Source: Fimbriimonadaceae bacterium
GTDB taxonomy: Bacteria; Armatimonadota; Fimbriimonadia; Fimbriimonadales; Fimbriimonadaceae
Length of the DNA: 64,000 nucleotides
Direction of reading: 5' to 3'
Assembly: GCA_020847855.1 (NCBI GenBank)
Contig: JADLBH010000029.1
Coordinates: 16,424 to 80,423, forward strand
Position numbers and translations under genes: made by a program. Position 1 is the stretch's first letter. Every line of letters starts with the position of its first letter. The notes beneath the pieces were generated by a model, which had not been told where the DNA came from, did not search any database, and saw only the letters and a program-made list of their open reading frames with translations. Below are positions 3,843-55,445 of this stretch, in pieces.

Positions 3843-5798
3843 CTATGCGGTGCCGGGCTCGAGCCTCGGGCTAGGGTGCTTGGACACGGCAGCCTCGTCG
3901 GTGGCCGCTGGCGGGGCACCGTCCAACGTGGTCTCAGCCGGCTTGGGCTCGGGAAGCTCACGCCCTGCGAGAATGGCCTCGAACTGCTCGCGGTCAATGG
4001 TCTCGTGTTCGAGGAGGGTGGAGACCACACGGTCGAGCTTGTCCCGGTACTGGGTGATGATGTCGGTCGCGCGCTGGTGGCAGTGGTCCACTATGGAGCG
4101 AACCTCTTCGTCCACTTGGCGAGCGATCTCCTCGCTGTAGTTCCTTTGCTCGACATAATCGCGTCCCAGGAAGGGGTTGCGCGAGCTTCGGCCGATCGCG
4201 AGCGTGCCCAGGCGCTCGCTCATCCCGTATTCGGTCACCATGGCCCTGGCGATCGCGGTCACCCGTCGCAGGTCGTCATAAGCGCCCGTGGTCACCGAGC
4301 CTTTCACGACCTCTTCCGCGACGCGCCCGCCCAAGAGGGCAGTGATCTCGTCCAGCAGCTTCTGCTTCGCGGTGAGGTAGGTGTCCTTCTCGGGTAGGTA
4401 CCAGGTGGAGCCCAGCGACATGCCGCGCGGCAGGACGGTGACCTTCTGGACCGGGTCGCAGTGCTCGAGGAACGAAGCGACCACGGCGTGCCCCGCCTCA
4501 TGGATGGCGATGGTCTCCCTCTCGTCCGGGTCCACGACGCGGCTCCTCCGCTCGGGCCCGGCCATGACTCGGTCGAGAGCCTCGTTAATATCGGACATCC
4601 CGATCTTGGACCGGTCGTTCCGTGCGGCGAGCAGGGCGGCCTCGTTCAAGCTGTTCGCCAGATCGGCCCCGGTGAAGCCGGGAGTTCGTTTGGCGATGGT
4701 CTCGAAGTCCACGTCGCCGGAGATCGGCTTGCCCTTGGCGTGAACCTTGAGGATTTGTTCTCGACCCTTGGCGTCGGGCATGTCCACTACGATCTGCCGA
4801 TCGAAGCGGCCGGGCCGCAGGAGCGCTGGGTCGAGCACGTCGGGCCGGTTGGTCGCCGCGATCATGATGACGCCGCTGTTGGGGTCGAAACCGTCCATTT
4901 CGACCAGGAGCTGGTTGAGCGTTTGCTCGCGTTCGTCGTGGCCCCCGCCGAGTCCGGCTCCTCGCTGTCGCCCGACGGCGTCAATCTCGTCCACAAAGAT
5001 GAGGGAGGGCCGATGGGCCTTCGCGGTCTCAAAGAGGTCGCGCACCCTGGCCGCACCCACGCCGACGAACATCTCGACGAAGTCGGAACCGGAGATATGG
5101 AAGAAGGGCACGCCGGCCTCGCCCGCGATCGCACGGGCCAAGTGGGTCTTGCCCACGCCGGGGGGCCCGGTCAAGAGGATGCCTTTCGGGATCTTCGCGC
5201 CGAGCGCGACGTACTTCTTCGTGTTTCGCAGGAAGTCCACGACCTCGAAGAGCTCCGCTTTGGCCTCATCAATCCCAGCGACGTCCTCGAACGTGATCTT
5301 CGGCGTGTTCTCGCCCGCCCGCTTGGCGCGGCTCCTCCCGAAGCTCATGGCTTGGTTCCCCCCCGCCTGGGCGGCGCGGGAGATCATGAGCCACAGGATG
5401 AAAAGGAAGCCGAGCAGGACGAGCAGGTTCAAGACTACGGGCAACCAAGTGAGCGCGGCGGGGGCGTCCTCGAGGGTGACTTCCACTCCCTTGGCCTCCA
5501 GGAGCTTCTGTAGCTCGCCGCCTGCGTAGGAGTCCGAAGTGTTCGCTTTGGCAACGTAGGGCTTGCCGTCCACCATCTCGCCTCGGATCGTCTTCTCCTG
5601 CCACTTGGCCGAGGAGATGTTGCCCGACTCGACCTCCTTTCGGAGTTGGCTGATTGTGAGTTCCTCGGGCGCTTGCGAGGCGATTCCCAGGCTGCCTGCC
5701 GTTCCGGAAAACATCCGGCTCATGAGAATCACGACCAGTACCGCGACTGCGGTGAAAAGTAAGCCTCTAACTCCTCGATTGTTCAAGTTTCCACCCAA
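3843..5798 (-). CDS. ftsH: ATP-dependent zinc metalloprotease FtsH
   Basis: N-terminal [25 protein letters not shown] Walker A, HEAGH zinc motif, AAA SRH. Confidence 0.97.
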
Positions 5799-45443: not shown

Positions 45444-46169
45444 GTGGGGGTCTTGACGCGCAAAAAACCTTCCATCGCCGAGCCGGTCACCGAGCTTCGG
45501 CGTATTCCCATTCGCGAGAACGGGGAACCACTCGTCACCTATCTCGACCGTCATCCCAGACTGATCGTAGCGGCCCCGCGCTGGGACTATACGCGTGCGA
45601 CCTTTGCTCGGAGATCGGTCGTGGAGATGCTGGTGCGGGCGGCAGACGCCTTGCCCAAGGGCTATGCGATCGCGGTGATCGAAGGGTGGCGCCCTCCCTA
45701 TATCCAACACAGGATGTACATCTCCAACTGGGAGCGGTGGAAGGAGCGGAGACCGGATTGGTCCGACGCGCAGATTCGGAGGACGGTGAACCGGTACACG
45801 GCCCCGATCCACAGCAAAGTGCCTCCCCCTCACTCGACCGGGGGCGCCGTGGACGTGTTGCTCGCTACGCTCGACGGCGAGGAGCTCGACCACATGAGCC
45901 CCTACCAGTTTGGCCAGCACGAGTCCTATCCGTTCGATGCACCCAATCTGAGTGAACCCGCGAGCCAGCATCGGCGAATTCTCGGAGAGGCCCTGATCGC
46001 GGGCAAGCTCACGAACTACCCCAGTGAGTGGTGGCACTGGTCCTATGGCGACCAGGGCTGGGCCTACCGCAACGGATTCGAGGCTGCGATCTACGGCCCA
46101 GCGGAGCCAGAGGGCTGGGTTGGTGTCGAGGCCGACATGGTGGACGCGGTGATCAGCCGGTTCCCTTAG
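45444..46169 (+). CDS. D-Ala-D-Ala dipeptidase-like M15D (VanX-like) peptidase
   Basis: IEGWRPPYIQHRMY; PPHSTGGAVDVLL zinc motif; YPSEWWHWSYGD; GTG start. Confidence 0.85.
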   Translation: MGVLTRKKPSIAEPVTELRRIPIRENGEPLVTYLDRHPRLIVAAPRWDYTRATFARRSVVEMLVRAADALPKGYAIAVIEGWRPPYIQHRMYISNWERWKERRPDWSDAQIRRTVNRYTAPIHSKVPPPHSTGGAVDVLLATLDGEELDHMSPYQFGQHESYPFDAPNLSEPASQHRRILGEALIAGKLTNYPSEWWHWSYGDQGWAYRNGFEAAIYGPAEPEGWVGVEADMVDAVISRFP

Positions 46170-47347
46170 GGAACGCCCAGGTGTCGGGCCAAATCGGCGC
46201 AGTCCAGCCGGTTGCCGAGTTCGCCATCGTAGTCTGGGTTGAGAGGGTCAATATTCGTGCCGCTTTGCTCGACCTCGTCTCTTAGGATCACAGGAGGAAC
46301 CCTGGGCACCGACCTCAGCGCATCGGCAATGGCGCCAGCGACGAGGGGCGACGCAAAGGACGTTCCGCTCCAGATGCCGATGGTTCCATCCCACCATGCG
46401 CTCTTGATCCCGGTCGCGGGAGCTGCCTGCCTCGCCCCTCCGTCCCAATTGCTGAAGGGCGCCTTGATGTCGTTCTGGTTCACCCCGGTGACCATGACGA
46501 CCTTGCTGATGTCGGCCGGGTAGTTGGCTCCGCGGTAACCGTTGTTCCCGATTGCGGCAACGACCGTCGTTCCGCGATCCTCGGCGTAGTGCATCACATC
46601 AGAGAGCGCGGGGATCGCTTGCTCCGAACCAAGGCTGATATTCACGACCTCGCACCCGGCCAGGACGCTACGGGCGATCCCTTTGGTGATCGTCCATGCA
46701 TCGGCTTGGCCGTCGGCATCGGCGACCCGGCAGATCACGAGTTCCGCATAGGGAGCGATCTGAGCGACGAGCCCAGCGACCATAGAGCCATGGCCCAGTG
46801 CCTCGTCGAGCCTGAAGTTTCGGTTGGAATCCACGCCGGTGGGCATGTCCCATGCGTCTGCACGGTCTCGAGCGATAGGGAATAGGACGGCAACGCGCGA
46901 GAGCAGCCAGGGGTTCTGCCTCGAGATACCGGTATCGAGGATGCCGACCCTCACTTTGCGGTCGGTTCCGCGCCACGGCCTGAGGCTCCACTGGATCTGG
47001 GCGAGAAGGTTCGAGTTCTCCCCGTAGATTCCATCGTCAAAGACGGCACCGATCGTGCTGCCCTTCCCTGCGCCGATATGCTCGGGCATCGCGAGCGCCA
47101 CGTTGTCCTCGCAGAAGCGAACTCGTGGATCGGCCCGCATTTGAAGCTGGACCGCGATCGGGTCGAAGCCTGGCTTCACCTCTACCAGGGCGAAGGGTGC
47201 GGGCTTGACGATGTCTATCAAGCTCACGGGGTGCGATCGTGCGACCCCGAGAATCTGGCGATAGTCCTGAACCTCTACGATGAACCGTGCCCCCGCGTGG
47301 GACAGGGCCGAGACCAAGACGAGCAGCGCGACGAGAGACCTTTTCAT
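46166..47347 (-). CDS. Secreted S8 (subtilisin-family) serine protease
   Basis: Signal MKRSLVALLVLVSALSHAGA; catalytic DTGIS, GHGSMVAGL, GTSFASPLVAGA; ATG overlaps the stop of the CHAT gene. Confidence 0.93.
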   Translation of the reverse strand: MKRSLVALLVLVSALSHAGARFIVEVQDYRQILGVARSHPVSLIDIVKPAPFALVEVKPGFDPIAVQLQMRADPRVRFCEDNVALAMPEHIGAGKGSTIGAVFDDGIYGENSNLLAQIQWSLRPWRGTDRKVRVGILDTGISRQNPWLLSRVAVLFPIARDRADAWDMPTGVDSNRNFRLDEALGHGSMVAGLVAQIAPYAELVICRVADADGQADAWTITKGIARSVLAGCEVVNISLGSEQAIPALSDVMHYAEDRGTTVVAAIGNNGYRGANYPADISKVVMVTGVNQNDIKAPFSNWDGGARQAAPATGIKSAWWDGTIGIWSGTSFASPLVAGAIADALRSVPRVPPVILRDEVEQSGTNIDPLNPDYDGELGNRLDCADLARHLGVP

Positions 47348-49890
47348 ACCCCGTATCCTCCAAGAGTCGAGAACGGCGCCCAGAAATACGGATGGGGCAT
47401 CCGTTGGCGCACCTGTGCCCGCGCGGCACCGACCGCCTCCAACCAGCCCTGACCCGCTTCGAGGCCCTGATAAAGGTTCTTTACGAAGACGAGTGCCGCT
47501 TTGTCGTCCAAGGGCCAAATGGGACCTATCACGACGGAGGCACCGCGAGCAAGGAAGGCCCGCCCCAGGCCCTCTGGCTCAAAGGTATTCGTGCCTCCCA
47601 CGGAAGCCGCCTCGCACGCGGTGAGCACGACGGATCCAAACCGGGCTGAGGAGCCTTGGATCTCAAAGGCGCGCAAGTTGCCGTCTGGGAAGCTGATTGT
47701 GGAGAACAAGGGCGACGTCGGGTGGGCTCGTGCGTGGGTGGCGATGTGGCATAGGTTGTAGTCGCCTCCCTGCAAGCTCGTTCGTGCCTGTTCCAAGGTT
47801 CGACAGATCTCGGTATGTGGAAAGACCTTGAGCAGCAGATCGGTCTCGTCACGAAGGTAGGGCAGGTCGTCCCAATCCGAGGTCCATAGGAGGACGCGGG
47901 GGTTTCGGGGCAGGGGCCGCGGAGTGCCCGGAGCAAAGGGCGCGAGCGCCATGATCGGCTCTTGGGTCGGGCTCGTGAGGGCCGCCCAAGGCACACGCCA
48001 GAGCTGGCCTTCGGGGCAGAGGTGCCTTTGGGGGAGGCCCGGTGGCAAGAGACACCCTAGGTCACGGATCGCGGCAAGGGCGGGGCCCGGATCCTGGCTC
48101 TCCCCCAACGCGGCACCGACGATCTCGAACCGAAGCGCACGGAGTCGGCGGGAGATGGCCTCCCTTCCCAGGGGTAGGGTCGTGATCTTGTCGCCCGAGA
48201 GCACGTAGGTCTCGTTCACCGACTCGACCCAGGCGATGTCCGGCTCCGGGGCCCCTTCCAGGAACTTTCCCGATGTGCGGCGGAGTGAGAGGTGGGTCTC
48301 CGACCACTCGGTTTGGAGAGCGAGTTCGGCAGGCGTGGACTTCGCGGGACGCCGTGGGTCGCTGCCCTCCGACTCGGCGAAGGCGACCCTGAGCCTGGCG
48401 ATCGTTCTGGAGAGTCGTCTCGGCAGGATCCCCGTTCGCAGGGCACCGATATCCTCGGCCAAGCCGATCGCCCGGTGCTTCCGCACCGCTCGGATCGCTT
48501 CTCCTTCGGAATCTTTGCGCTGGGCCAGGGCTTGCACATATTCGCCCAGGAGGCCCTCCCTGCCCCTCATGAACGCCGACCGAAGGATAGGGCTTGCGAG
48601 GCGGTCACGGTGCGTGGCCAAGGCATCGAGGGCTGCCGAGAACAGTGCGGGCGAGCCTTCGACCCTCGCCTTGATCGCCGTCCATCGCCAGTCGAGGGCT
48701 TGATCCCCGAGGCGCTCGACGGCAGATCTGCACTCGTCGAGCCTATCCCGAGCGAGCGCTCCATGCCAGAGTTCCCACTCCGCCAGGTCCAGGACACACT
48801 CGGCGTAGAGTCGCCGGGCCTTTGCCTTCCCGAGCACTTGGGTCGCACGACGGAGCGCGGCCAGGCCGCCGCCGTCGAGGTGTAGCCGGGCCATGGCGGC
48901 ACGGGATCGAGCGTAGGCCAACCAAACATGGTTACCGACCCTACGAAAACCAGCGGCCGCTAGGCGGAAGCGGCGACCTGCGAGGGTCCACTTTCCGGCT
49001 TGCGCGAGCGAGAGACCGAGGCCCAGGTGGACGTCGGCACGGTTCAGGCCCTTGGCACCGCGCAAGGCTACGGTGCCCGCGTGGATGCTCTCGTCCAAGA
49101 GCCCGCACGAGCGATAGACATCGGAGAGAAGCTCGGCGGTCCTTGGGTCCTCGTCGAGCCCGCCGTCCTCTCGCAGGATCGCAAGGCCCGCCTCGACCTG
49201 TCCGGTGAGCGCGAGCGCATACCCCTGGTTCAGTCGGGCTAGCCGCGCATAATGAGCTTGCCCGAGGCCCTCGAGTTGCTTGCCAGCTTCTTTGGCTCGG
49301 CGGAGGGCGGCTGCCGCGCTCCCGCCAAACAGCTCGGCGGTGGAGAGCGCGAGAGTCCCCGCAGCGGCCTCGACTCCGCTCAGGTGAGGCATCGCGAGGT
49401 GCAGCATTCGGGATGCCTCGGCGTACTTGTCGCTCCAGAGCAGGGCGTTCGCGGTGTTCAGGAGGGCGCGGGCGGCGTCGGTGCTTTCTCCCATGCGAGT
49501 CAGGTCTCGCGCGAGCCGCCTGCCCAACCGAACCGCCTCCTCCGGCCTTCCGGCTCGCGCGAGGCTGTCCACGCGCCCGATGGAATACGTCAAGGCGAGC
49601 CGAGGGGTTTTCGCTGCCTTCGACGCGAGGCGAAGGGTCTCTGCGCTCCGGAGCCATAGACCTCGCGCCCGCTCGCCCACGGCACGGGCCCGCAGCGCGA
49701 GTGCCAGGTCGGCGGGGGCGAATACCTCCCACCGGGATGCAAGGCGGGAGGTGATCTTTGGATCCGATCCGGCGACCTGGGCCACGCGGAAGAAGAACTC
49801 CTCCGCATCGCGCATGGTGGCGCGTCCAAGGAACTTGGCGCACGCGCGTCTTGAACTCGCTGACTCGACCTGGGATACGAGGCTAGGCAC
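47344..49890 (-). CDS. TPR-CHAT caspase-like protease
   Basis: N-terminal ~600 aa of TPR-like helices; C-terminal YNLCHIATHARAHPTSPLFS and FGSVVLTACEAASVGG (His/Cys dyad), GLGRAFLARGASVVIGPIWPLDD. Confidence 0.9.
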   Translation of the reverse strand: MPSLVSQVESASSRRACAKFLGRATMRDAEEFFFRVAQVAGSDPKITSRLASRWEVFAPADLALALRARAVGERARGLWLRSAETLRLASKAAKTPRLALTYSIGRVDSLARAGRPEEAVRLGRRLARDLTRMGESTDAARALLNTANALLWSDKYAEASRMLHLAMPHLSGVEAAAGTLALSTAELFGGSAAAALRRAKEAGKQLEGLGQAHYARLARLNQGYALALTGQVEAGLAILREDGGLDEDPRTAELLSDVYRSCGLLDESIHAGTVALRGAKGLNRADVHLGLGLSLAQAGKWTLAGRRFRLAAAGFRRVGNHVWLAYARSRAAMARLHLDGGGLAALRRATQVLGKAKARRLYAECVLDLAEWELWHGALARDRLDECRSAVERLGDQALDWRWTAIKARVEGSPALFSAALDALATHRDRLASPILRSAFMRGREGLLGEYVQALAQRKDSEGEAIRAVRKHRAIGLAEDIGALRTGILPRRLSRTIARLRVAFAESEGSDPRRPAKSTPAELALQTEWSETHLSLRRTSGKFLEGAPEPDIAWVESVNETYVLSGDKITTLPLGREAISRRLRALRFEIVGAALGESQDPGPALAAIRDLGCLLPPGLPQRHLCPEGQLWRVPWAALTSPTQEPIMALAPFAPGTPRPLPRNPRVLLWTSDWDDLPYLRDETDLLLKVFPHTEICRTLEQARTSLQGGDYNLCHIATHARAHPTSPLFSTISFPDGNLRAFEIQGSSARFGSVVLTACEAASVGGTNTFEPEGLGRAFLARGASVVIGPIWPLDDKAALVFVKNLYQGLEAGQGWLEAVGAARAQVRQRMPHPYFWAPFSTLGGYGV

Positions 49891-50374
49891 CCTCAGGGTG
49901 CATCGTACCGAGTGGCGGTATTTCGAACTCGTCCGTGGAGTTCCAAAACCGCATGGCTTCGCCGCTGGGAACCATGTGCTCGAACCGGGTTCCCGCTTGA
50001 ATCTCGACCGGACCGTCGGCAGTGTCGAGGAACCAAGGCCCGCTGCCGATGCGCCCCTGCACCAAGAATCCAGCCTCGACCTCTTCGAAGCTCAACCGTA
50101 TGGTGGAGTCTCCGACCTCCATGACGACGTCGCCGCTACCGCTGGGCCCTCGGGCACCAGCCCATGCTTGGCCCATGTTCGCAAAGGAGACCGTCAGCCT
50201 CTTTCTCTCCTTGGCAGGCATAATCGCCTTCGCTTGCTCGACCCATTCCTGCGGGACGTCCTGGCCCATCGCTCGAAACGCTCGGGCAAGTCGCCCGGCG
50301 GCCTGCGGGGCTCCAAGCCCCTGCATTGCGTCGTCCAGTTCCTTCGCCCAGGCTTCCATGCGATCCATACTCAT
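49883..50374 (-). CDS. Small protein of unknown function linking sigma factor and TPR-CHAT
   Basis: ATG at 50374 overlaps sigma stop (ATGA), 3' end overlaps the CHAT start; helical N-terminus, beta-like C-terminus. Confidence 0.7.
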   Translation of the reverse strand: MSMDRMEAWAKELDDAMQGLGAPQAAGRLARAFRAMGQDVPQEWVEQAKAIMPAKERKRLTVSFANMGQAWAGARGPSGSGDVVMEVGDSTIRLSFEEVEAGFLVQGRIGSGPWFLDTADGPVEIQAGTRFEHMVPSGEAMRFWNSTDEFEIPPLGTMHPEGA

Positions 50375-50994
50375 TGGCCTTGTCCTTGGAGAGCCCCCGC
50401 GACCCCACTTTGATACGTCGGATCCTCGAAGAACCCAGACTTTTCTAGGACAGCCCGCAGCCGATCCAGGCACCGGGCCCTAGTCGGCCCTATGGAGCCG
50501 ATCGCCATCCTGAGGCGTGCCGAGATCTCCTCGTAGCTGGAGCCGTCTTCCGCATAGAGCATTCGAAGCAGCTCGCCGCACTTGCCGCCTAGATCTTCCA
50601 GCGCTTGCCGCACAAGCTCCCCTTCGAGCGATAGGGAGACGATCTCATCGGCCCGCCTTTCCTCGCTCGCCAAGACTTCGGAGAGCAGCTCGATGTCGGT
50701 CGTCGCTGTTGCCCGTTGCTTGGAAGCGAGCCTTACGGCGAGCCTGCTCGCCGTCACCGCAAGCCATCCGCCCAGGGCGGCGGGGTTCTCGATTCGATCC
50801 AGGGAGCGATAGAGCGCGAGGAAGGTGGCTTGGAACACTTCGGCCCGATCCTCCTCCCCCAAGCCGGAGTTCCTCGCCACCCCATGGACGAGCGTCCGGA
50901 ACTCGTCCACGATCCGCGACCAGGCGGCTTGATCGCCTGCTTGGCATCGGCGAACCAGCCCCGGAAGCGCGTGTTCGAGGTCGGGGGTCGGCAT
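50371..50994 (-). CDS. ECF-type RNA polymerase sigma factor
   Basis: RCQAGDQAAWSRIVDEFRTLVHGVARNSGLGEEDRAEVFQATFLALYRSLDRI; LRMLYAEDGSSYEEISARLRMAIGSIGPTRARCLDRLRAVL. Confidence 0.9.
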   Translation of the reverse strand: MPTPDLEHALPGLVRRCQAGDQAAWSRIVDEFRTLVHGVARNSGLGEEDRAEVFQATFLALYRSLDRIENPAALGGWLAVTASRLAVRLASKQRATATTDIELLSEVLASEERRADEIVSLSLEGELVRQALEDLGGKCGELLRMLYAEDGSSYEEISARLRMAIGSIGPTRARCLDRLRAVLEKSGFFEDPTYQSGVAGALQGQGQ

Positions 50995-52088: not shown

Positions 52089-53054
52089 CTATTGCTGTTG
52101 TTGCTGCTGCGCTTCCACGGGGACCATCACGTCCACTGAGCTCGAGGTCTTGATCGGTAGCTTGGAGTACACCGGCAGGTCAATGGACTCGATCTGCTCT
52201 CGCAAGCCCGCGACGTCGGGCCGTGCCGTCGGCGTGGTGTGGACTATTGCCGTCAACGACTCCTGGGCGTTGCCGCGATAGACCCCCTTGTTGGGAGGGA
52301 CGTCGTCATAGTTGCGGCCGTGGGCGACGACGACGTACTTCGCGTCGGGGACGCAGTGGTTCGTGGGGTCGAACGCTTGCCAAGCGCCTTGGGGGTCGAG
52401 GTACTCGACCCAGGCGTGGCTCTCGGAACTCTGGCCTTGGTTCCGTTCCACGTGGAGGTATCCACTGACGTACCGAGCCGCAACGCCATGGATGCGGAGA
52501 ACCGCGATCATGATTTGAGCGAAGTCCTGGCAGACCCCGGCGCGGAGCCGAAGCGCGTCTGTGATCGCGGAGTGATAGGTCGTGACCGTGGGCTTGTAGC
52601 TCAGTTCGCTCTGGAGAAGGTTGGCCGTGGCGATCACGATCTCGGTGACCGACGGAGCTTGGGGTAGCTTCGCAGTAGCGGCGAACTCGTACACGATCGG
52701 CTCGTCCGCGATCGGTCCCCCGAGCGCGAGGAAGTCGCGGTCGCGCCCGGTCTTGGGCTCGACGGGCGGACCAGCAGCGATCTCGCTGGGTGCAGTATAG
52801 GGGTTCGTGGACTCGACGATGGAGCGAGCCGATATCTCGATCCTCTCGTGAAAGTTGGGAATGCCGAAGTGGTGAACCATGTTTCCGAGCCAGTCGCGGT
52901 GCTCGAACACCTTGGTGGGCGGTCCGACTGCGAGCACGAACGAATGGACCTGTTGCTGTTCGGTCTGCTTGGGTTCGATGCGGAGCTCCATCCACGACTC
53001 GCGGATGAAGTCGCTGTATTGGAACGAGATCGTGTGCTCGACCTGGAGGATCAT
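52089..53054 (-). CDS. Transglutaminase-like family protein
   Basis: LRLRAGVCQDFAQIMIAVLRIHGVAARYVSGYLH...SHAWVEYL...FDPTNH catalytic Cys/His/Asp. Confidence 0.92.
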   Translation of the reverse strand: MILQVEHTISFQYSDFIRESWMELRIEPKQTEQQQVHSFVLAVGPPTKVFEHRDWLGNMVHHFGIPNFHERIEISARSIVESTNPYTAPSEIAAGPPVEPKTGRDRDFLALGGPIADEPIVYEFAATAKLPQAPSVTEIVIATANLLQSELSYKPTVTTYHSAITDALRLRAGVCQDFAQIMIAVLRIHGVAARYVSGYLHVERNQGQSSESHAWVEYLDPQGAWQAFDPTNHCVPDAKYVVVAHGRNYDDVPPNKGVYRGNAQESLTAIVHTTPTARPDVAGLREQIESIDLPVYSKLPIKTSSSVDVMVPVEAQQQQQQ

Positions 53055-54016
53055 GGGTTCTGATCCGCATCGGTCAGCGCGGTGTGGACGGAGTTCAACG
53101 ATTCGATCGTGGAGCTGAAGAAGCTGCCGAGTTTGGGCATGTCCAGGATCGCCTCACGGTCATAGTTGAGCGTCGCCGCCAGCTTACCGATCTCGCGCTG
53201 GGCGAGCTTGATGCCCGGCCCTTCGATGGGGAGTTGGTTCAAATAGCCGAGCATTCTGCTGACGCCACAGTTCACGGACCGTGGGGCACCAGCGTTGAAG
53301 ACGAGGAAGTCCGTCACGTCGGTGCTGGTGAAGCGCGGGCCATACCTCTGGCGGTAGTTCTCGAGCGAAGCGAGGTGGGCGAGAAGGCTTCGCCATCCTG
53401 CAAAGTGCAACGGTGAGCCCGTCTCGCTCATATCCCGGAGCGTGGGAAGCCTTGCGCCCAGGACGATGAGGGTGCGCCATGTTCTTTCCAGGGCCTCACC
53501 GAGCTTCTGGTAGCACCAGCCTTGGTCACGAGTGAGCGTGTTCTCGATTGCACCCAGTGTGAGGAGGATCTGGCGGTTGGCGCGGTCCACTTCTTCATAG
53601 GCTTTTCCCGAGTCGCGGAAGGGCCTGCTTCCGAGCCGGGCGAGATGGACGTGAGTGTCGTTGAGATTGACGATCACTTCGCGTGTGAGGGTTTCCGAGG
53701 TGGCACGTGCGCAATCGCGGGCAGCGGCGACGGAGAATGCGACGGAGACGCTGTTCTTGGGGTTGGCGAGGTAGTGGTTCATATAGGCGAGAGCGATGTC
53801 CTTGGGCTTCGCCCTCACGTCCAGCAAGGGTTCAGGGCTGGGGAAGCACTGGGCAAGGAACCCCCACTCGCTCCTTGCCTTGGCCGCGCTCAGGCCCCCG
53901 ATCTCGCGATAGAAGTCCGCAGTGACCCTGATCTGGCGGCTACAGTTTTCGGCCCGCTCGACATAGCGTCCAAACCAGTACAGGTTCTGAGCGACCCTAG
54001 CGAGCAGGTACTGCAC
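53051..54016 (-). CDS. Alpha-E domain-containing protein
   Basis: VQYLLARVAQNLYWFGRYVERAENCSRQIRVTADFYRE; GTG start overlapping the ATP-grasp end. Confidence 0.88.
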   Translation of the reverse strand: MQYLLARVAQNLYWFGRYVERAENCSRQIRVTADFYREIGGLSAAKARSEWGFLAQCFPSPEPLLDVRAKPKDIALAYMNHYLANPKNSVSVAFSVAAARDCARATSETLTREVIVNLNDTHVHLARLGSRPFRDSGKAYEEVDRANRQILLTLGAIENTLTRDQGWCYQKLGEALERTWRTLIVLGARLPTLRDMSETGSPLHFAGWRSLLAHLASLENYRQRYGPRFTSTDVTDFLVFNAGAPRSVNCGVSRMLGYLNQLPIEGPGIKLAQREIGKLAATLNYDREAILDMPKLGSFFSSTIESLNSVHTALTDADQNP

Positions 54017-55445
54017 CGGCTTCCTCCAGCACCCATGTGTCCTTGCTGCCGCCCCCTTGCGAGGAGTTGACGACATACGACCCCTCGACGAGGGCGACCC
54101 GAGTGAGCCCACCCGGCAGGACCCGAATCCGATCCCCATAGAGCACGAACGGCCGGAGGTCAACCCGACGTGCCTGGTATTTCCCGTCGAGATAGGTGGG
54201 GTGGGCGGAAAGGTGCACGAGGGGCTGCGCGATGTAGCCGCCGGGGTTCGCTGTGACCGCCTTAGAAAACTCGTCCTGCTCCGCCTTCGACGACATCGGC
54301 CCCATGAGCATCCCGTAGCCGCCTGCGCCGCCCGTCTCCTTAACGACGAGCGTGTCCAAGTTCTCGATCATGTAACGGGCGTCGTCGGGTCGGAAGCCCA
54401 TGTACGTGGGGACTTGCCCGAGAAGGGGCTCTTCCGAGAGGTAGAAGCGAATGATCTCGGGCACATAGGCGTACATCGCTTTGTCATCGGCGACTCCTGC
54501 CCCCGGCGCGTTCGCGAGGGCCACGTTTCCGGCCCGATAGGCGCTGATCAGCCCCGGCACCCCGAGGACGGAGTCTCGCCGGAACACCAACGGGTCGAGG
54601 AACGGGTCGTCGGTGCGCCGGTAGATCACGCTGACTTGGCGCCGGCCTTCCGTGGTCTTGACGAAGACGTAGTTCTCCTCGACGATGAGATCGTGGTTCT
54701 CCACGAGCATCACACCCATCTCTCGGGCCAGGAAGCTGTGTTCGTAGTAAGCCGAGTTCGCCCGCCCAGGCGTGAGGACCACGCTCAGCCCGCGGGTGAC
54801 GTTGTGCGGCGAGACGTAGTGCAGGGTTTCGAGGAGCATGTCTGGGTAGTTGCGCACGGGCGCCACCGAGAGCGAGGAGAAGAGTTCCGGGAACGTACGC
54901 TGGAGGATGTTGCGGTTCTCGATCACGTAGGAGACGCCGCTCGGGCACCTACAGTTGTCTTCCAGGACCACGTAGCTGCCATCCTCGTCACGGATGAGAT
55001 CGGTTCCGACGACGTGTGTGAAGACGTCTCGAGGCGGGATGGCCCCCAGGAGCTCCCTCCTGAAGTCCGGCCGGGAAAAGATCAAGTCATAGGGGACGAT
55101 TTTCTCCTCGAGGATCCGCTGATCGGTGTAGACGTCCTTGAGAAAAAGATTGAGGGCGGTGACGCGCTGGGCCAGACCGTCCTCGATGCGCCCCCACTCC
55201 TCCATGGGGATCACCCTGGGAACGAAGTCGAACGGGAAGACCCTCTCCTCCCCCTCGCCGTCGCCGTAGACGTTGAAGGTGATCCCTTGGTTCCGCAGCG
55301 AGACCTCCTGGAGCTTGCCGCGATGCTTGATCTGACGGGTCGTGAGGTGCCCTAAGGACTCGACGACCGAGGCATAGTGGGGCCTGGGAAACCCGTCCTT
55401 GTCAAAGGCCTCGTCGAACCCGGTGAGCGAGGTCGTCCATTGCAC
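53997..55445 (-). CDS. Circularly permuted type 2 ATP-grasp protein
   Basis: GITFNVYGDGEGEERVFPFDFVPRVIPMEEWGRIEDGLAQRVTALNLFLKDVYTDQRIL; standard cluster with alpha-E and transglutaminase. Confidence 0.92.
   Translation of the reverse strand: MQWTTSLTGFDEAFDKDGFPRPHYASVVESLGHLTTRQIKHRGKLQEVSLRNQGITFNVYGDGEGEERVFPFDFVPRVIPMEEWGRIEDGLAQRVTALNLFLKDVYTDQRILEEKIVPYDLIFSRPDFRRELLGAIPPRDVFTHVVGTDLIRDEDGSYVVLEDNCRCPSGVSYVIENRNILQRTFPELFSSLSVAPVRNYPDMLLETLHYVSPHNVTRGLSVVLTPGRANSAYYEHSFLAREMGVMLVENHDLIVEENYVFVKTTEGRRQVSVIYRRTDDPFLDPLVFRRDSVLGVPGLISAYRAGNVALANAPGAGVADDKAMYAYVPEIIRFYLSEEPLLGQVPTYMGFRPDDARYMIENLDTLVVKETGGAGGYGMLMGPMSSKAEQDEFSKAVTANPGGYIAQPLVHLSAHPTYLDGKYQARRVDLRPFVLYGDRIRVLPGGLTRVALVEGSYVVNSSQGGGSKDTWVLEEAGAVPAR

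Follow-up and report, generated by a model that had tools for sequence, protein, structure and literature searches.

Four overlapping genes on the minus strand of the DNA analyzed here, a stretch of 64,000 nucleotides hereafter called the window, encode in this order an ECF sigma factor, a small soluble protein, a TPR-CHAT protease and an S8 subtilase (table 1), and we judge the chances to be about even that they constitute a proteolysis-triggered sigma switch, in which the CHAT protease would cut the small protein, a predicted anti-sigma factor, and thereby free the sigma. The source genome is a MAG of the Armatimonadota (Fimbriimonadia-like), 2.5 Mb in size and 97% complete. Re-reading of the open frames and of the DNA reproduced the coordinates of the four genes and all three of the overlapping junctions reported in the initial annotation: the stop of the sigma and the start of the small protein share four bases in CAATGAG (ATGA, 50371-50374), the TAG of the small protein overlaps the GTG start of the CHAT gene by eight bases (GGTGCCTAG, 49883-49890) and the stop of the latter shares four bases with the start of the subtilase (GTATGAAA; ATGA, 47344-47347). 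Overlaps of 4, 8 and 4 bases are in keeping with the translationally coupled operon proposed in that annotation, and the four genes are probably co-transcribed. On the same strand, genes for transglutaminase-like, Alpha-E and circularly permuted ATP-grasp proteins lie in a row (window 52089-55445).

Table 1. Features of the operon and its surroundings (window positions unless loci are named)
Feature	Position	Strand	Basis
ECF sigma factor, 207 aa (sigma2 + sigma4)	50371..50994	-	TIGR02937 E 2.5e-15
Small soluble protein, 163 aa, predicted anti-sigma	49883..50374	-	Family profile matches ZAS anti-sigma factors
Degenerate ZAS-like helical region, residues ~1-56	50207..50374	-	AF2 helices, alignments A1/A5
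Beta-sandwich domain of small protein, residues ~80-152	49919..50137	-	AF2; CarboxypepD_reg-like in relatives
TPR-CHAT caspase/separase-like cysteine protease, 848 aa	47344..49890	-	CHAT E 6.2e-25; AF2; Csx29 match
N-terminal TPR-like helical array, residues 1-534	48289..49890	-	AF2 secondary structure
CHAT protease domain, residues 624-844	47359..48021	-	Pfam PF12770
S8 subtilase, 393 aa, signal peptide + prodomain	46166..47347	-	PF00082 E 4.5e-26
Predicted subtilase signal peptide, MKRSLVALLVLVSALSHAGA	47288..47347	-	Hydropathy and eye; hydrophobic N-terminus in 12/12 aligned orthologs
M15 (VanX-like) peptidase gene	45444-46169	+	Converges on subtilase, ends overlap
A8 divergent gene	L022, L026, L027, L028, L031, L033, L034, L038, L043	opposite to sigma	

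The linkage of the four genes was analyzed in 60 related genomes (titled Armatimonadetes, Fimbriimonadaceae and Chthonomonadaceae MAGs), which together with the window genome form a sample of 61. Whole-protein orthologs of TPR-CHAT, full-length or cut by contig ends, are present at 13 loci in 12 of the related genomes (28-35% identity; G034 has two), and the fetched flanks keep the order sigma/small protein/TPR-CHAT/S8 at all 13 loci wherever the contig allows; the locus of G048 is split across two contigs, one of which ends with the sigma and the small protein. A profile built from the operon sigmas gives best-class matches of 235-285 bits in 15 of the 61 genomes, a patchy distribution that includes all 14 genomes carrying a TPR-CHAT locus, the remaining genome (G054) having a contig that ends 164 bases past the sigma. 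The next-best sigma scores 138 bits and itself belongs to an operon copy that has diverged (L117), with all remaining sigmas at 96 bits or below. This wide gap in bit score and the co-occurrence of sigma and CHAT by genome (P ~7e-13, ignoring phylogeny) indicate that the sigma is dedicated to the operon. Chance adjacency of the four genes is ruled out by the order kept in distant genomes together with the co-occurrence. The initial annotation had made its proposal depend on conserved linkage in related genomes; with the order kept and a co-occurrence far beyond chance, the proposal was not refuted on this ground. Outside the four genes the neighbors vary between loci, save for pairs of related loci and a divergent secreted gene that is considered below.

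The same gene set is found in a second phylum, which was entered via a contig titled Candidatus Eisenbacteria (L049/L064). The sigma profile matches 20 of 47 genomes there, and the 20 loci fetched contain 12 complete copies, in 11 loci, ordered sigma/small protein/CHAT/S8, the other loci being cut by contig ends or rearranged. Nonomuraea gerenzanensis (Actinomycetota) has one locus in the order S8/sigma/small protein/TPR-CHAT (L054), the proteins of which match the Armatimonadota profiles with E values of 4.5e-37 for CHAT, 3e-33 for the sigma and 2e-33 for S8, and another with S8/sigma/small protein, where a CHAT gene is encoded on the other strand (L050). The small proteins of Nonomuraea were assigned by position and by eye, without a significant profile match. 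Sigma matches on Streptomyces plasmids (L051, L053) were not counted as the same system, since neither CHAT nor S8 lies nearby.

The assignment of the small protein emerges from the comparison of its families. Taken alone, the window protein matched no family or anti-sigma model in family scans, and its Armatimonadota orthologs align weakly with it (15-29% identity). An H-x3-C-x2-C zinc motif (HLKKCPNC, HLTTCTEC and similar) occurs in 11 of the 17 Armatimonadota relatives; of 17 small proteins from the second phylum, 15 have it, together with an N-terminal His. The profile of the second-phylum family aligns along its N-terminus with the solved anti-sigma factors RsiW (E 2.5e-5), RslA (3hug; 1e-3) and ChrR (0.04); its individual members show N-terminal matches to NCBIfam anti-sigma models (9/17, best 8e-7) and to zf-HC2 (8/17), and C-terminal matches to Pfam CarboxypepD_reg (7/17), the NOMO2 match being likewise C-terminal. 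The window family and the second-phylum family align with each other over 163 columns (hhalign probability 98.4%, E 7e-15; alignment A7), whereas the Armatimonadota profile (A1) by itself reaches RsiW only with E 0.045. Likeness to known anti-sigma domains is seen at the family level, and on the basis of these alignments we conclude that the family, combining a ZAS domain with a CarboxypepD_reg-like beta domain, is a predicted soluble anti-sigma family; by homology and position, we infer that the window protein is a putative anti-sigma factor as well. Its earlier designation as a candidate anti-sigma thus gains support at the family level.

The zinc motif is absent from the window copy in alignments A1/A5, as it is from its nearest relatives, those of L022 and L034. 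Since the same two loci group with the window in the tree of CHAT plus sigma (support 0.91), loss of the zinc ligands is probably older than the window genome. The AF2 model of the window protein contains N-terminal helices (residues 3-19, 22-35 and 42-51; pLDDT ~60-69) followed by a confident beta-sandwich (pLDDT ~85-92), which is the best-conserved and confidently modelled part of the protein. No membrane segment was found in any of the small proteins examined, the highest hydropathy over 19 residues being 1.6. Foldseek with the model returned no significant match, cupins and other folds at E >=0.05 being set aside, and dodecin matches of the A1 profile were taken as chance. Of note, the small proteins of L103 (3119-3595) and L104 (6274-6771), which lie beside the sigma, lack the zinc-binding helical domain and consist mainly of the beta domain, as do those adjoining the sigma in the Nonomuraea loci L050 (9557-10027) and L054 (~4643-5086).

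The sigma has a Sigma70_r2 match and scores 56.5 bits against a cut-off of 42.9 with the ECF superfamily model TIGR02937 (sigma70-ECF) over residues 24-181; sigma2 and sigma4 are its only domains, as befits an ECF sigma, and sigma4 carries the signature GSIGPTRARCL. Its orthologs are 34-48% identical, and the sigma profile is nearest in the PDB to SigW, the partner of RsiW. Inspection by eye of the region upstream of the sigma in 17 loci showed no shared ECF autoregulatory promoter, and this candidate was discarded; what recurs instead (in L022, L026, L028, L031 and others) is a housekeeping-like extended -10 element of the TGATACAAT type, lying by eye ~10-20 bases before the start codon of the sigma. 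Such proximity suggests very short or leaderless transcripts initiated from a housekeeping promoter.

The CHAT gene of the operon is the only one found in the window genome. Its CHAT domain carries the His/Cys dyad of CHAT proteases, with H715, H719 and C759 invariant in 13 of 13 aligned orthologs, and the subtilase has the Asp/His/Ser triad and oxyanion Asn of S8 peptidases (D138, H186, N268 and S330, invariant in 12 of 12), in agreement with the intact active sites described earlier for both proteases. The AF2 model of TPR-CHAT (pLDDT 86, pTM 0.82) finds as its first two fold matches in the PDB the Csx29 subunits of Cas7-11 complexes (8eey, 8eex), followed by separases. The best of these, 8eey_B, has E 3.8e-14 with moderate TM scores of 0.40/0.45, so that, as modelled, the domains would match those of Csx29 rather than the exact arrangement of the domains. 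Sequence similarity to Csx29 is limited to the CHAT region, and the Csx29 model scores 21 bits against a cut-off of 300. No RAMP (PF03787) match was found in the window genome (G000, 97% complete), the control genomes being positive; Cas1 is present on another contig. Craspase proper was rejected given the lack of a RAMP in the genome and a score far below the Csx29 cut-off. TPR-CHAT thus shares its type of scaffold with Csx29 without being part of a Craspase. The initial annotation had likened the operon to the Craspase circuit (Csx29/Csx30/CASP-sigma) while placing it outside CRISPR, a view now reinforced by Csx29 being the best match of the AlphaFold model. The analogy needs correction for the small protein, the family of which is similar in sequence to ZAS anti-sigma factors and has no Csx30 match.

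The subtilase orthologs in Armatimonadota are 34-47% identical, and 12 of 12 aligned have a signal-peptide-like N-terminal segment by hydropathy and eye. Their second-phylum homologs, inspected by eye in the open frame, have mostly lipoprotein-type or signal-type N-termini (e.g. LVALAGCSRE), and no export signal was seen by eye in the N-termini of the Nonomuraea subtilases. Predicted export implies that the subtilase has no direct contact with the cytosolic sigma, anti-sigma and CHAT proteins, certainly not in Armatimonadota and the second phylum if the prediction holds, and because of this separation we read the enzyme as a probable output of the system.

From the observed gene content, conservation, active sites and family assignments, the proposed switch would operate as follows. 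At rest, the sigma would be bound and kept inactive by the small protein; the TPR array may sense a cytoplasmic signal or partner and so activate CHAT, which would then cleave the small protein, and the free sigma would transcribe the target genes of its regulon. Output or outward-facing roles would fall to the exported subtilase and to a divergent secreted protein that many relatives encode, because an export signal puts both on the far side of the membrane, away from CHAT, the sigma and the anti-sigma. A precedent exists in Csx29, which cleaves Csx30, the inhibitor of CASP-sigma (PMC10028731). The switch is favored by the conserved gene order, the co-occurrence of sigma and CHAT, the ZAS family profile, the SigW-like sigma, the Csx29-like model and the invariant sites. 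Against it stand the window small protein, with neither anti-sigma model match nor zinc ligands and with no significant Foldseek match for its model, and the small proteins of L103, L104 and both Nonomuraea loci, which keep only the beta domain, so that inhibition of the sigma there would need another surface. Conservation of a cleavage site would be uninformative in this context, given that the positions cut by Craspase orthologs are themselves not conserved (PMC11106740).

The retention of the beta-sandwich, best conserved and confidently modelled in general and the sole part left in some members, would also suit a different scheme, in which this domain senses a ligand and frees the sigma without proteolysis, the sigma turns on the operon, and CHAT and subtilase act as effectors in a self-digesting or defence response rather than as trigger. 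The match of CHAT to the anti-phage protein BovA (E 2.9e-7) and the probable co-transcription of the overlapping genes point the same way. However, positive autoregulation was not seen, the loci having by eye a housekeeping-like TGATACAAT-type -10 and no common ECF promoter, and Csx29, the closest structural relative, acts upstream of its sigma; we consider this scheme rather unlikely. The resemblance of CHAT to Csx29 and Borvo, combined with the patchy distribution of the operon (15/61 genomes), might alternatively indicate an anti-phage system without CRISPR, with direct sensing of the phage by CHAT followed by death or dormancy of the cell. This seems improbable to us, for the flanking genes are variable and are not defence genes, and a system that exports both S8 and the divergent small protein is unlike typical abortive infection.

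Similar neighbors (carboxypeptidase, subtilase and CHAT) have led to the proposal that ECF54 sigmas are under proteolytic control with no anti-sigma (PMC8999054), and the proteases could by the same token degrade the sigma itself and hold it off. To this we give little credence, given that in two phyla the product of the small gene belongs to an anti-sigma family and that the subtilase, with its predicted export in Armatimonadota and the second phylum, could not reach a cytosolic sigma there. The sigma studied here does have CHAT and subtilase genes nearby, as in the ECF54 context, and the 'carboxypeptidase' domain described beside ECF54 (PMC8999054) is, we suspect, the small protein's own CarboxypepD_reg-like domain. 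The difference is that ECF54 is presented in the review without an anti-sigma (PMC8999054), whereas the operon contains a small protein of an anti-sigma family. The association had thus been described in part, this type of neighborhood being already known from ECF54 (PMC8999054). The additions made here are that the small protein is assigned to an anti-sigma family, that the gene order recurs in a second phylum, that the model of TPR-CHAT has a Csx29-like fold and that a secreted protein is encoded divergently beside the operon in some loci.

Cleavage of the anti-sigma by CHAT, the reading that we prefer, can be compared with other known systems. The Craspase circuit of Csx29, Csx30 and CASP-sigma shares a TPR-CHAT protease of the same predicted fold with a His/Cys dyad, its gene being accompanied by those for an ECF sigma and for a candidate sigma inhibitor (PMC10028731); it differs in that the operon genome has no gRAMP/Cas7-11, the small protein has no Csx30 match, the likeness to Csx29 in sequence lies only in CHAT and the operon has four genes, an exported subtilase being added. 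ZAS anti-sigma factors (RsiW, RslA, RsrA, ChrR) resemble the small protein in having an N-terminal helical domain, a His/Cys zinc motif (here in the relatives) and a gene adjoining that of their ECF sigma. In ChrR, too, the C-terminal domain is soluble and rich in beta structure. Unlike the transmembrane segment of RsiW or the cupin of ChrR, the C-terminus of the small protein is CarboxypepD_reg-like, and neither the window copy nor its nearest relatives retain the zinc ligands. Separase has a protease domain related to CHAT, and the human enzyme ranks among the best fold matches of the model, but the bacterial operon has no cohesin context.

The recurrence of the four-gene set in at least three phyla without the RNA-guided part of CRISPR suggests that switches from protease to gene expression exist well beyond CRISPR. 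We advance more tentatively, as possible though somewhat short of an even chance, that CRISPR-independent sigma/anti-sigma switches triggered by TPR-CHAT are widespread in at least three phyla, that the Craspase circuit may be an offshoot recruited by CRISPR and that the exported protease and a cognate secreted protein form an outward arm. If true, the logic of protease, sigma and inhibitor would be an older general module, and the origin of transcriptional control by a caspase-like protease in Craspase would be explained. The anti-sigma assignment would modify the published view of such a sigma as lacking an anti-sigma; the operon offers a handle on the function of bacterial TPR-CHAT proteins, and the four-gene sets, including a natural zinc-less variant, are small and concrete sets of proteins that can be tested.

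The divergent gene encodes a small secreted protein (~125 aa, alignment A8) just upstream of the sigma in nine Armatimonadota loci (table 1), within ~200 bp where measured, with one open frame overlapping the sigma. A search of the 61 genomes found the family in eight, seven of which carry the operon (P ~1e-4, ignoring phylogeny), and not in the window genome; in G019, the gene is on another contig. It is possibly a fifth part associated with the operon. In both the window and L022, an M15 peptidase gene borders the operon, and G007, which has no such sigma, contains a homologous M15 gene followed by an A8-type small secreted gene and no operon (L118, 4024-5175); this pair looks like a possible relic of operon loss. 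Several genomes carry at least two copies of the operon, namely two adjacent in tandem in L097 and several loci in G034 and G064, suggesting parallel circuits within one genome.
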